Below, one piece after another: positions 24,549-29,799 of a stretch of 63,290 nucleotides of DNA. A model generated the notes under the pieces. It was not told where the DNA came from. It searched no databases and saw only the letters and a program-made list of their open reading frames with translations. The first letter of the stretch is position 1; each line of letters opens with the position of its first letter. The position numbers and the translations under genes were made by a program. Source of the DNA: Chloroflexota bacterium (GTDB lineage Bacteria > Chloroflexota > Dehalococcoidia > Dehalococcoidales > UBA5760); contig JADFUW010000027.1 in the NCBI GenBank assembly GCA_015222205.1, forward strand, positions 1 through 63,290. The letters run 5' to 3'.

Positions 24549-24624
24549 TGGTGGAGATAGGGGGATTCGAACCCCCAACCTCTGCGATGCGAACGCAGCG
24601 CTCTCCCTACTGAGCTATATCCCC
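24549..24624 (-). tRNA. tRNA-Ala (anticodon CGC)
   Basis: Cloverleaf from reverse complement GGGGATATAGCTCAGTAGGGAGAGCGCTGCGTTCGCATCGCAGAGGTTGGGGGTTCGAATCCCCCTATCTCCACCA; loop TTCGCAT; G3:U70; encoded CCA. Confidence 0.96.
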
Positions 24625-24746: not shown

Positions 24747-26378
24747 TTATCTTGGATGCTTTTGCCGATAGTACCCATAGTACCAGGTTAGCCAAGCTAA
24801 CAATGTGAGAGCAGCAATGAGCCCTCCAATAAGCCACCAGTTGGTCCATACCAAAGTCTGGAATTCTCCACTCAGGTCACCTATCTGTACTACATAGTGG
24901 CCTGGCTTATTTTCAGTAACAGTGAAGATTACCTCCCGACTTTGTCCGGGACGAAGGGTGATATTCTTGGTGTCTTGTGTTTGCCCATTTATCTTGAGGT
25001 CGGCGACATAGCTGCCTTCCTGCCCACCATCGTTACCTATCTCGGTGCTGATGGTAACACTTTTTGCTGTTCTTACCATAAGGGTAAAGGGTTCCCATAT
25101 CCCTATCTTTTCCTGGCTGGGCGTGATGGTCAAGCCACCGGCCACAAAGTGGGCAGGTGGAGGTGGCGGCGGTGGGGGAGGTGGAGGCGAAGGTTCTGGT
25201 GAAGAAGGTGGGGATGGTGATGGGGGTAACGTCGCCATTACGGCGAGTGAAGAAAAGTGGTTTACCAGTCCAGCTGCCGTACCGACCTCAGCCACTCTAC
25301 CTGGGACACCTTGTGATTTAACCCATTTGCCGAGTTCAGTATCGTAATAGGCGATAAACAACGAGGTAGCATCCTCAGGCAGTTCCTCGGTGGGATAACT
25401 TAATAACACTGTAATTGGTGAGCCGAAGGTAACCATAGGACATTTTGGACAATCTGGGTCTTCCCAATACACTTCCTTATATCCGATAAAGTCATAAACT
25501 TGACCAACTGCTGCCATATCATCCGGTATTGGTGGCGGGTCCTCAGACGGCCTCATTACCACTATTTCTGGGTAGTTCCCACATCCTGGATGCTCACCAC
25601 AAATTACCGGCGTGCCATCGTCAATTACTAAGAAGTGTATATCTTCGGGGTCAGAGGGCTCGTAGTCTTTGAGAACCTTGTTGCCACAGCATCCGACCTT
25701 TATCTTGGTTATTTCACCCAGCATGTCTATCAGGAAATAACACGCCCCTCCACCACCGCCAGTGGGGCCACGGCTACCAGTGGTAGTGGGAGGAGGAGGA
25801 TACTCCTCGAGTGCATAATTTATGTCAAAAGATAGGCAATCTCCTTGAACATCATTACCTGTCGGGCAGGGCAGTTCCCAGTCCCAATCCAGGGTAACGG
25901 TATCACCAGAATTGAGTGGAATTATCTTGACATAATTTGGATCCAAAAAACTCTGCGGAAGGTTAAGGAGCGTCGTTGGAAGGCTTATATTGGTGCTTAA
26001 TCGGCCAGGAGGAATAGAAGAGAGGTCAAACAGTAAGTGGTCAATAAGCTCACCGGGCTCTGAGGTATCGCCCGTCTCAGGTTCCGGGTTTAAGCCTTCA
26101 GTGCTCTCAATATCGCTTATCCAGATGGTAACAAAACCATCTTCGTCACCAGCATTGTGCAGGGTGACCGTCTCAACGCCGCTATCGCAGGGCATAATAT
26201 TCTCTATATTCCAGCTAGTAGCTCCTCCACCCCCCAGCACCAGGTCTACCGGGTCAGCAGCCTGAACTGGGGTTGGTAAAGAGCCAAGCAGAGCCAGCCC
26301 TATTACCGCCGCTAGAAACAATCTGGTGGCGTATCTCGTAGTTCTGCCATTCATAATAGCTTCTTTTAACCTGTTCAT
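24747..26378 (-). CDS. Secreted membrane-anchored protein with camelysin/TasA-like N-terminal region, proline-rich stalk and C-terminal TM
   Basis: Signal peptide; VETVTLHNAGDEDGFVTIWISDI; 11 consecutive prolines; C-terminal WWLIGGLIAALTLLAWLTWYYGYYRQKHPR. Confidence 0.6.
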   Translation of the reverse strand: MNRLKEAIMNGRTTRYATRLFLAAVIGLALLGSLPTPVQAADPVDLVLGGGGATSWNIENIMPCDSGVETVTLHNAGDEDGFVTIWISDIESTEGLNPEPETGDTSEPGELIDHLLFDLSSIPPGRLSTNISLPTTLLNLPQSFLDPNYVKIIPLNSGDTVTLDWDWELPCPTGNDVQGDCLSFDINYALEEYPPPPTTTGSRGPTGGGGGACYFLIDMLGEITKIKVGCCGNKVLKDYEPSDPEDIHFLVIDDGTPVICGEHPGCGNYPEIVVMRPSEDPPPIPDDMAAVGQVYDFIGYKEVYWEDPDCPKCPMVTFGSPITVLLSYPTEELPEDATSLFIAYYDTELGKWVKSQGVPGRVAEVGTAAGLVNHFSSLAVMATLPPSPSPPSSPEPSPPPPPPPPPPPAHFVAGGLTITPSQEKIGIWEPFTLMVRTAKSVTISTEIGNDGGQEGSYVADLKINGQTQDTKNITLRPGQSREVIFTVTENKPGHYVVQIGDLSGEFQTLVWTNWWLIGGLIAALTLLAWLTWYYGYYRQKHPR

Positions 26379-26398
26379 TGCCCGCTCATCATTTATAG

Positions 26399-27268
26399 TT
26401 ATACACCCGTTGCATCAGCGTTATTACCGTCAAGTGCGAACTCAGATGTGGCATTTTCTTCAATGCCGACTCCATCAAATAGGTTGGTTATGTCATACTC
26501 ATACATCTTATCTGTACCATCATCCACCACCCACAGCGATGTACCATCAAGCATAGCCCCGGCTGGACTCTGGAGCTTATTGTTAGTTGTGTACTCTAAT
26601 AGTACCTTTGAGACGGTTACTGGTGTGCCTCCAGGGTGTGGGTACTGATAGAACCTTGTTTCTTTCGGCGTGCTCGTGCTGTAATCCACTACATAGAGGT
26701 AGTTACTGTCGATAGCTAATCCCGCGGCTCCTTTGTTATCAGTATCAAGAGTAATCTTCTGAGCAGCGTTTATGTCACCAGGTCCAGAAAATGCTGTACC
26801 CAGTGGATATCGGTATATATTCTTATCGTTACCCGAAAGCACCCACATTTCAGTACCATAAATAGCTAAACCATCTATGTTCCCAACACTACTCGGCCCA
26901 ACAGCCTTCAAGAGCTTCTTGGAGACATCTTCAAGAGTCCCACAACAGTCGTATTTATAGACCTGCTTCCGAGCATGGTCGATGACATAAACATTCGTTC
27001 CCACCGCAGCCACGCCAGTGGGGAACCCGTTGTCGCCCGAAAGGCCAAAGCTATCTACCGGAGTACCGGAAGCATTGTACTTGTAGATTTTAGCATCAGG
27101 CTTGTCGGAGACATTAAACTTCTCGCAGGTACATACAACCTCCTCTACCCATGCCGTAAACTGATTACCCGTTGAGGTCTCGGTATCACTAAAAAAAGCG
27201 GAGGTGCCACGGCTCGTTATCCCCAGAAGAAGGATAAGAGCTAATGACAGAATTAAGACCTTCTTCAC
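26399..27268 (-). CDS. SipW-dependent-type signal peptide protein with NHL/beta-propeller-like repeats
   Basis: MKKVLILSLALILLLGITSRGTSAFFSDTETSTGNQFTAW leader; repeated KIYKYNASGTPVDSFG / GLAIYGTEMWVLSGNDKNIYRYPLG / LWVVDDGTDKMYEYDI units. Confidence 0.7.
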   Translation of the reverse strand: MKKVLILSLALILLLGITSRGTSAFFSDTETSTGNQFTAWVEEVVCTCEKFNVSDKPDAKIYKYNASGTPVDSFGLSGDNGFPTGVAAVGTNVYVIDHARKQVYKYDCCGTLEDVSKKLLKAVGPSSVGNIDGLAIYGTEMWVLSGNDKNIYRYPLGTAFSGPGDINAAQKITLDTDNKGAAGLAIDSNYLYVVDYSTSTPKETRFYQYPHPGGTPVTVSKVLLEYTTNNKLQSPAGAMLDGTSLWVVDDGTDKMYEYDITNLFDGVGIEENATSEFALDGNNADATGV

Positions 27269-27472
27269 CTATGGCACCTCCTTTCTTTCAGTAGTCTCTC
27301 TATTCCTAGCGGGCTTCCGCCCGCCATTGCACAAATTCAACCATATGCCGGCTCCGAAGTAAAGGTGAAGCCGACCCCACCGCCAACCATGACACTGGGT
27401 TGGTGGTGGAGCGGGACTCCCGCCCCACCACCACTTTACTGCCACCTCCATCTAACCAACTAGCCACGGGCA

Positions 27473-28555
27473 TTAAGGTGTGTCAAGGTCGTTGTGCCAG
27501 ATGAGATAGGTCTCAAACAGGTAATCGCCGGAGTTCCAGGCTGTCATCTGACCACTAGCACCAGGGGTAGTGGTGCTATAGTCGCTGGATGGGACGAGCC
27601 ATATCTTGGCGCCGAGTGCCAAGTTGTCATCGGGCGAAGTTGGCAGGTCTATAGCAAGGTCTTGTGAACCCGACGTAGATACGATAGCGCCCGAGCCATC
27701 GGTGGTAAAGGTGGCAATCAGAGCACCAGGATTGTTGCCCGCCCATGGGTCGGCGTAGTAGATGAGGCTGTAATCGGTAGTGTTCTGAAGTCCAATGGCA
27801 CTGAAGGTGTAGTCAAAGGTTGAGCCCACCGTGTTGTAATCCAGGTATCCTGCCGTGCCATCACCGAACAGCACCAACCAGTTCTGGCTTTCATCCTTGT
27901 TCTCCAATACTAGCTGGGTGCCTGGCATCTGCTGGGCAAGGAACTCAACGGTGAAGGTCAGGGTATCGCCCTGATACTCATTGCCGGTAGCAGCATCCAG
28001 GTGATAGCTCTGGATGACATGCATCTTTCCACCCGGCGGAATTGAGCCCAATGGTACAGACACGCTGGCGAGGTCGCTAATGAGCACATTCTCGTTAAAC
28101 AGGGTCTGGTGCCATTGGTCCGTCGTTCCCCCAGTTGTAGGGTCGATAATCTCCGAGGACAGGTCATACAAAATCCAGGCATCGATGTCGTTAATGCTGT
28201 CGTTGGGGTCTACCTGCCACTCAGGCTCAGAAGAACATGTGGCACTCCCTACAGGATACGCTGGAGTACCACCGCCGGTGACGAAATCCGTGAGGTGCTT
28301 CCAGACGACGCAGGGGTTAGTGCCCACGTTGGTGATGTCATACTCTACATACCACGTCTCACACGGCTTGGCATCTTCAATGGTGAACGGCGCTGACCAC
28401 GGGTTATCGCCATCAATGGCGATGTCAATGGTTCCCGCCGAGAAGGTGTTATCCGTGCTGGTCTCAGTATCGGTGAACAAAGCCCAGGTTCCACTAGCCA
28501 CCAGGCTGATTACCACCGCTACCGCAATCGCTAAGCCAAGTATTCTCTTTTTCAT
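27473..28555 (-). CDS. SipW-dependent TasA/camelysin-like secreted protein
   Basis: MKKRILGLAIAVAVVISLVASGTWALFTDTETSTDNTFSAGTIDIAIDG leader and DITNVGTNPCVVW-type core. Confidence 0.75.
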   Translation of the reverse strand: MKKRILGLAIAVAVVISLVASGTWALFTDTETSTDNTFSAGTIDIAIDGDNPWSAPFTIEDAKPCETWYVEYDITNVGTNPCVVWKHLTDFVTGGGTPAYPVGSATCSSEPEWQVDPNDSINDIDAWILYDLSSEIIDPTTGGTTDQWHQTLFNENVLISDLASVSVPLGSIPPGGKMHVIQSYHLDAATGNEYQGDTLTFTVEFLAQQMPGTQLVLENKDESQNWLVLFGDGTAGYLDYNTVGSTFDYTFSAIGLQNTTDYSLIYYADPWAGNNPGALIATFTTDGSGAIVSTSGSQDLAIDLPTSPDDNLALGAKIWLVPSSDYSTTTPGASGQMTAWNSGDYLFETYLIWHNDLDTP

Positions 28556-28720
28556 TTCTATTATCTCCTTTAATTAATACCGATATTATTCGCCAATTGG
28601 CGAACTCGAAGGGTTAAAAAAATCCTGTTCTCTTTTAATGCACCTCCTTTCATATCTTTATTTAATGCGCTTTTTGTGTCTCTATCTAGTTATGCTGTTC
28701 CCAAGGCATCACCCCTTTTA

Positions 28721-29212
28721 TTAGGCTACCTTCTCAGATTCCCTCAGTTTTTTGCGTATGTCCCGGATAAGGAAGGCAACCAGGACGGCAGCCGGAATAA
28801 CAACTACCAACAACCAGCCGGGCTTGGTCCGGATGAAATTGGACACATAACCCATGCCGGGAATTTTGAATAAGTAAACACCTCTGACATCGGACAGGCT
28901 GACTGCCCACGGGTCAGTGTCTTCCACGGCGTCACCCTTGGTGAGCAGGGTGCTACCATCAACCGAGAGCACCCTGTGCGTGACTAGCTCCGCCCCATGG
29001 AGGTAGGTTACGATGCTCCCCGGTTTTGCCTCACCGCGTATTGGGCCATCTAAGGGACCAATGACTACCATATCCCCCATATTGATAGCTGGCTTCATGC
29101 TCTCACTCCTCACCAGGTACATGTTGTAGTCAGGTGAGAAATGCACAAAAACAAACCCGCCGATAACAACAGCCAGTACTGTGAAAACTACCCAGCCAAG
29201 AACCTTCTTCAC
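28721..29212 (-). CDS. Signal peptidase I, SipW/archaeal-type
   Basis: YLVRSESMKPAINMGDMVVIGP, GSIVTYLHGAELVTHRVLSVDGSTLLTKGDAVEDTDPWAVS; N- and C-terminal TMs. Confidence 0.9.
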   Translation of the reverse strand: MKKVLGWVVFTVLAVVIGGFVFVHFSPDYNMYLVRSESMKPAINMGDMVVIGPLDGPIRGEAKPGSIVTYLHGAELVTHRVLSVDGSTLLTKGDAVEDTDPWAVSLSDVRGVYLFKIPGMGYVSNFIRTKPGWLLVVVIPAAVLVAFLIRDIRKKLRESEKVA

Positions 29213-29306
29213 TATCTAAATCACCTCGAGATAAACCAGCAGCTTCCTGTATCTATGCCTCTATTTAGTTAGTCGCTGATTGGGGGAGAAATCCCTCATA
29301 TGGGTG

Positions 29307-29334
29307 AGTATACACCTAAATTACTAAATGTCAA
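29307..29334 (-). promoter_or_regulatory. Predicted sigma-70-type promoter for the signal peptidase/TasA-like locus
   Basis: Minus strand TTGACA-N16-TATACT about 95 nt upstream of the signal peptidase start. Confidence 0.65.
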
Positions 29335-29506: not shown

Positions 29507-29799
29507 TTATGCTTTATCAAGCGAGGCTGGTAGGGCAAGTGTGGTCAAATGCTTTAACGCTGACCTTCGGGCAAGAGGGCTTACCATTTTTTGTGTTGAT
29601 TTCCTTAAGCAGCTCGTTATCCAGAGCTTGCTGAGCTATTATCCGCTTCAGCCTGGCGTTTTCTTCCTCCAATACCTTCAAGTGTTTAAGCTCAGGGAGA
29701 GTCATCCCACCATATCTGCTTGTTTTCACGATTACCCTCCTGTAGTTATTTTACAGGAGTCTCGCATTCAATGTGGGCCTATTTTCGGGGGGCAGGCCA
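29507..29799 (-). mobile_element. IS3-family insertion sequence remnant (left end, internally deleted orfA, start of orfB)
   Basis: IR-like end TGGCCTGCCCCCCGAAAATAGGCCCACATT (29770-29799); OrfA-like LKVLEEENARLKRIIAQQALDNELLKEI; AAAAAATGG then OrfB-like MVSPLARRSALKHL. Confidence 0.75.

Follow-up and report, generated by a model that had tools for sequence, protein, structure and literature searches.

In the genome of an uncultured member of the Dehalococcoidales (phylum Chloroflexota), four neighbouring genes seem to specify all parts of a surface fibre: a swappable tip, a rod resembling TasA and a base held in the membrane. The base is a transmembrane (TM) protein that carries a TasA domain of its own but no donor segment. 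The genes lie on the minus strand of the window, i.e., the whole 63,290-nucleotide stretch of DNA analyzed here (G000:C21; L and G numbers are our handles for loci and genomes), between tRNA-Ala (24549-24624) and a glutamine synthetase-like gene, in the order signal peptidase, TasA-like protein, SipW-leader/NHL-like protein and membrane protein. The host is a metagenome-assembled genome (MAG) of 0.94 Mb in 32 contigs, ~90% complete, and the closest named relatives are Dehalococcoidales MAGs, e.g., RS_16_7, UBA5760, AUK216 and STD1_192. An initial annotation, made from the sequence alone, had described four co-directional genes for a SipW- and TasA-like surface-fibre system; the coordinates, shared strand and order of all four open reading frames (ORFs) held, and our results support that reading in substance. 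Three features had gone unnoticed: the TasA domain in the TM protein, an additional domain at the C-terminus of the TasA-like protein, and structured RNA in the intergenic region at 27269-27472. The genes, and the parts of their products on which the argument turns, are as follows (aa, amino acids; ER, endoplasmic reticulum):

28721-29212, minus strand: SipW-like ER/archaeal-type signal peptidase, GTG start, 163 aa (TIGR02228 over cut-off; Ser38/His79/Asp94/Asp100)
27473-28555, minus strand: putative TasA-like fibre subunit (donor and acceptor), 360 aa (PF12389; TIGR04088; TasA 8aur/5of1 by profile, 8aur by fold)
28427-28555, minus strand: SipW leader and predicted donor segment of the TasA-like protein, aa 1-43, FTDTETSTDNTF (aligned with TasA residues ~28-38)
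26399-27268, minus strand: SipW-leader (donor-only) protein with NHL/SGL-like propeller cargo, 289 aa (TIGR04088; ortholog over the SGL cut-off)
24747-26378, minus strand: membrane-anchored leaderless TasA-domain protein (putative acceptor-only base; hereafter the anchor), 543 aa (profile homology, TM helix, residue checks)
25797-26249, minus strand: leaderless TasA domain of the anchor, aa 44-194 (hhalign, genome scan, residue check)
24798-24854, minus strand: C-terminal TM helix of the anchor, aa 509-527, with basic tail (hydropathy; helix at model residues 474-500)

A SipW-like peptidase and two leader-bearing proteins

Profile searches bore out the SipW/archaeal-type signal peptidase of the initial annotation (TIGR02228, 68.6 bits; cut-off 51.85), whose Ser38, His79, Asp94 and Asp100 follow the ER-type Ser-His catalytic pattern and are invariant across six relatives; against the Bacilli SipW equivalog NF046067 it reached 60.3 bits, short of the curated 190. 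The two proteins predicted to have SipW-dependent leaders were both recognized by TIGR04088 (37 bits for the TasA-like protein and 29.3 bits for the NHL protein; cut-off 19). The first of these, previously called TasA-like, matches Peptidase_M73/camelysin (PF12389) at 56 bits (gathering cut-off 22.5), over the N-terminal 79 residues only. With the TasA equivalog NF046066 scoring 31 bits against a curated 450, the profiles place the protein in the TasA/camelysin family but not as TasA itself.

Structural likeness to TasA (a jelly-roll fold), a point on which the earlier reading had been staked beforehand, was suggested by two routes. When the model of the mature TasA-like monomer (predicted local distance difference test (pLDDT) 68, predicted template modelling score (pTM) 0.65; residues 1-17 below pLDDT 50 and disordered) was compared with the PDB using Foldseek, the top match was the TasA fibre 8aur (probability 1.00, E 1.3e-3), at a TM-score of only 0.44 on the target. 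The TasA family profile, run against PDB sequences, matched both 8aur (E 6.1e-5) and 5of1 (E 2.5e-4); plain phmmer of the TasA-like protein against the same database gave nothing useful, so that profiles were needed. The TasA-like protein, with its predicted donor segment, may form fibres by donor-strand exchange.

The claim that the NHL protein joins such a leader to NHL/beta-propeller repeats stood as regards the leader, whereas the propeller is sub-threshold in the window protein and was recovered through the ortholog in L070, which passes SGL (28.6 bits; cut-off 26.3). The TasA profile covers only residues 2-39 of the NHL protein, and domain and family profile searches revealed no TapA homology; by analogy, it would work like TapA, without being classed as TapA. 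Across loci, the proteins encoded in this third gene slot bear unrelated cargo: NHL/SGL, Kelch (in a protein of 786 residues), DUF2341 together with a CBM-like part, and FN3-like sequence, while others show no known domain. None has a C-terminal TM helix. Conservation of their leader motif runs ~12 residues beyond the cleavage site (D.E.S..N.F) and then stops. Of note, in Nealsonbacteria and one other bacterium (L072:9472-11061, L075:4922-5948 and L079:2813-3703), the product of the gene after sipW starts with a long basic extension that precedes a SipW-type leader, and its tail is acidic or disordered; this may be another way of tethering the fibre.

The membrane protein contains a leaderless TasA domain

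The fourth gene had been predicted to encode a membrane-anchored protein with a proline stalk, acting as the cell anchor. We recovered its N-terminal signal, proline stretch, C-terminal TM helix and basic tail, and the anchor idea gained strength from the TasA domain found within the same protein. Profile-profile alignment by hhalign relates this domain to TasA with a probability of 98.0 (E 1.6e-13), and in an independent genome scan a TasA profile built without anchors recovered the window anchor at E 5.6e-12, over profile positions 60-203. The distribution scans covered 156 Dehalococcoidales genomes and a 399-genome sample of the phylum, and all 16 leaderless TasA-profile matches in the order start at profile position 41-64, past the donor segment; since only a few residues separate the AxA-type signal from the domain, these anchors have no room for a donor. 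Most of them end in a C-terminal TM helix and basic tail. A search of the anchor-domain profile against the PDB gave no match, and fold matches of the whole anchor to viral envelope proteins and glycosidases, all of low TM-score, were set aside as uninformative.

The rest of the anchor (stalk, CARDB-like part and TM helix; aa ~200-543) is a module common to many unrelated surface proteins of the order, such that the anchor profile matches 118 of the 156 genomes, mostly within this module. It is also found at L067:6570-7934 and G005:C18:5187-6209, and some such proteins have PKD-like repeats. In G059, the anchor gene (L106:7439-9739) is split by an in-frame TAG into frames of 247 and 507 aa, reflecting a pseudogene, an error or read-through.

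A tree of TasA domains places 16 anchors in a single clade (99/99). Outside this clade, the fourth gene of G004 groups with that genome's own TasA (78% identity; 99/89), yet its product is leaderless, tethered to the membrane at its N-terminus and encoded in the same gene slot as the anchors. Judging by the tree, it is a second leaderless membrane-tethered TasA, which arose independently.

Interface residues separate TasA-type proteins from anchors

The Dehalococcoidales proteins thus fall into three classes: donor and acceptor (TasA-type), donor-only (third slot, with variable cargo) and acceptor-only with a TM anchor. In TasA fibres, residues 28-38 of one subunit enter the next, while TapA, which has a complete fold of its own, gives the first strand (PMC9674648, PMC10151520). 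The most conserved contact of the fibre, the proline box, joins three successive subunits, with F29 coming from n, Q232 from n+1, and both F200 and P62 from n+2 (PMC10151520). In the window TasA-like protein, the equivalents of F29, P62 and Q232 are F27, P64 and Q209. Q232 was mapped by its exact +14 spacing from the QGD/QGN motif, with a TasA sequence used solely for residue numbering.

The Q232-equivalent is Q in 30 of 31 TasA-type proteins versus 1 of 19 anchors, and the sole TasA-type exception also lacks the donor. In its place anchors carry E (as in the window), D, G, T, N or M, a variety that looks like relaxed constraint, while the P62-equivalent is P in all 16 anchors with an aligned column, the window anchor included. 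A terminal acceptor needs P62, but its Q232 would be left without an n+2 partner; retention of P62 with loss of Q232 therefore fits a terminal subunit. A small TasA-domain protein at L119:3088-3738, which has neither SipW leader, C-terminal TM helix nor Q232-equivalent, supports the link between donor and Q.

The donor also bears on leader processing. LepB poorly cleaves sites with an aromatic residue at P2' (PMC10269814), and because the F29 position is P2' of the cleavage site, donor-bearing proteins would need SipW. A LepB-type peptidase gene is present elsewhere in the genome, and the anchors, unlike the donor-bearing proteins, carry AxA-type signals.

Synteny and distribution

Co-conservation of the four genes, the other point on which the initial annotation had hung its reading, was borne out in relatives. 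Gene order is kept in L070 (identities of 70, 82, 53 and 55% for the four genes), as well as in L073/L104, L063/L076 and L064, and in L062/L077 with a replaced fourth gene; because the locus is syntenic in relatives, chance is excluded. Among the Dehalococcoidales genomes scanned, 36 match the TasA profile and 58 the SipW profile. Of 51 leader-bearing TasA matches, 46 have sipW no more than 6 kb away and on their own strand, and so do 15 of 17 TasA-domain anchors at distances up to ~4.1 kb. The two remaining anchors sit on short contigs (5.8 and 5.2 kb), and in one of them (G096) the anchor still has as neighbours a leader protein and a C-terminal piece of TasA.

Matches occur in 33 of the 399 genomes sampled across the phylum, and TasA-like neighbours were found on Nealsonbacteria and Gaiellales contigs too. 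The latter occurrences indicate that the family is wide outside Bacillota, as stated previously (PMC10151520); SipW-TasA loci outside Bacillota are already known.

A model for fibre assembly and its alternatives

Taken together, these results make it probable that a thin surface fibre is assembled from the products of this operon through donor-strand complementation, with no need for a sortase, chaperone or usher. SipW would cleave the leaders off the TasA-like and NHL proteins, the hydrophobic residue near their mature N-termini belonging to the donor strand and making the sites poor LepB substrates. The NHL protein, with a donor segment but no TasA domain, would start the fibre as TapA does and end up at the far tip, where its cargo could serve in adhesion. 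TasA-like subunits, having both donor and acceptor, would then form the rod, adding at the free-donor end, at the membrane. Finally, the acceptor domain of the anchor would receive the strand offered by the final rod subunit, ending growth and tying the fibre to the membrane through stalk and TM helix. MurA was not over cut-off in any of nine family genomes, so sortase anchoring to a wall is unlikely and a TM base plausible.

Several points weigh against this model. The evidence comes from genes and single-chain models; the TM-score between the TasA-like model and 8aur is low, the anchor was modelled with modest confidence (pLDDT 72, pTM 0.42), and TasA was not among the matches when the whole anchor was used as the query for the fold search. 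Most anchors share one clade and origin, so that the Fisher p of 1.9e-11 for the Q contrast overstates the independence of the data. In addition, the third-slot leader is degenerate in some loci, with L or I in place of F, and the G004 anchor still has its Q, which is consistent with a recent origin.

The alternative that fares best, though we regard it as unlikely, is that a TasA-type fibre is made but the anchor domain accepts no strand, the anchor being a self-complemented surface protein (for surface-layer contact, as a receptor or in protease protection) that is merely co-expressed. TasA monomers are indeed self-complemented and stable (PMC9674648), and the C-terminal module of the anchor is common to many unrelated surface proteins, as its spread over most genomes of the order attests. 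The version with a TasA domain, however, is specifically linked to sipW; of the interface it has lost only Q232 and the donor, keeping P62; and the same slot has independently gained another leaderless, tethered TasA.

Somewhat more doubtful still, in our estimate, is that the SipW leader is a secretion signal only, the NHL and other third-slot proteins being released enzymes or matrix adhesins outside the fibre. The conserved leader is also what SipW recognizes, residues P3 to P4' mattering for processing (PMC10269814), and some third-slot donors are degenerate, as noted above. Yet conservation past the cleavage site matches the donor segment and stops where it ends, and in most loci the gene is flanked by those for rod and anchor, with 20 bases separating it from the latter in the window. 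As for the Pfam name Peptidase_M73, the above-cut-off PF12389 match notwithstanding, it is highly improbable that the TasA-like protein is a camelysin-type surface endopeptidase, as its 360 aa hold no HExxH, not even an HE dipeptide, the match is limited to its N-terminal part, and its best structural match, TasA, is a fibre protein.

Beyond donor-strand assembly of the fibre as such, we see about an even chance that these loci represent a distinct, self-contained Dehalococcoidales pilus, with an interchangeable donor-only tip, a TasA rod and a growth-ending, acceptor-only TM base that evolved at least two times from rod subunits, and in which the peptidase used (SipW or LepB-type) follows the presence of a donor.

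Further features of the locus

Three further features were mapped in or beside these genes:

27500-27916, minus strand: extra C-terminal domain of the TasA-like protein, aa 214-352 (separate homolog in G001:C19, L066:6133-6756)
27269-27472, minus strand: intergenic region with strong RNA structure (z-score -5.4), including a perfect 15-bp stem at 27401-27433
29307-29334, minus strand: possible sigma-70-like promoter upstream of sipW, TTGACA-16-TATACT (11/12 consensus matches; suggestive only)

The extra C-terminal domain has no Pfam name and is common to the TasA-like proteins of L070, L071, L072 and L075; it forms a stand-alone secreted protein in G001 and is fused to TasA in Nealsonbacteria (L072:7938-8957 and L075:3357-4385). 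This spread hints at transfer between the Dehalococcoidia and the Patescibacteria, or else at mis-binning.

At the same place in L070 (L070:5144-5442), RNA structure recurs with a changed stem sequence (z -5.6). The hairpin, which precedes the NHL gene, is not a dispersed repeat, being present in a single copy in the genome. Tentatively, it may be an mRNA-processing or stoichiometry element that shields the rod mRNA, setting the rod above tip and base. Sigma-70-like sites numbered 5 against 7.4 expected in shuffles, hence the caution over the sipW promoter.

Two-component genes flank sipW in several relatives. In Dehalococcoidia W265, a response-regulator-like N-terminus is fused in frame to a SipW-like peptidase (L080:120-2363, 747 aa); L065 has a small receiver-like ORF overlapping the sipW start, and L106 one ending next to sipW. 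Several relatives have a gene for a subtilase-like serine protease next to the locus (L070:2264-3271, L104:2652-3656 and L113:2245-3216). It is absent from the window, where a short coding remnant just upstream of the locus (~29581-29729, minus strand) resembles, by eye, the C-terminal part of an IS3-type OrfA.

Comparison with known systems

Attachment of TasA-type fibres and their growing end are poorly settled even in Bacillus, and the present locus offers a concrete base subunit, the reading of which carries a built-in prediction, i.e., Q232 lost and P62 kept. The locus further hints at a sortase-free way for bacteria that apparently lack peptidoglycan to present swappable adhesins. An acceptor-only base in the membrane and a donor-only tip that can be exchanged both seem to be new; the literature searched contained no paper linking SipW or camelysin to Dehalococcoidia, work on archaeal bundling pili being outside that search and priority accordingly uncertain. 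Donor-only subunits as such have precedents in TapA and the Sulfolobus thread cap Saci_0405 (PMC9674648, PMC10151520, PMC9715654).

Like tapA-sipW-tasA of Bacillus subtilis, the locus combines a dedicated ER-type signal peptidase, a TasA-family subunit whose donor strand is N-terminal, and a partner that is donor-only (TapA there and, by analogy, the NHL protein here). It differs in gene order and taxon, in having no TapA homolog that we could find, in a donor-only partner with propeller or other cargo, and in a TM anchor bearing an acceptor-only TasA domain, which is not described for B. subtilis in the literature examined. With sipW-tasA-capP-calY of Bacillus cereus it shares several TasA-family proteins per locus, SipW processing and sortase-independent filament assembly (PMC13082335); CapP, however, is SipW-processed and held at the cell wall by a disordered C-domain, whereas here a TM anchor with a TasA domain carries an AxA-type signal.

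The archaeal bundling pili (AbpX; Pyrobaculum and others) are likewise TasA-related donor-strand pili of cells without peptidoglycan, although AbpX entries match our family profile weakly and not significantly (E 0.13). Sulfolobus threads combine a donor-strand rod (Saci_0406) with a donor-only terminal subunit, the putative cap Saci_0405 (PMC9715654), but are not of the TasA family, have no described acceptor-only base and are of unresolved polarity. Lastly, although the present system has no chaperone, usher or outer membrane, carries N-terminal donors on its own subunits with opposite polarity and is unrelated in assembly, its logic of a variable tip adhesin, a rod and a terminating base subunit is that of the chaperone-usher pili (type 1 and P pili).

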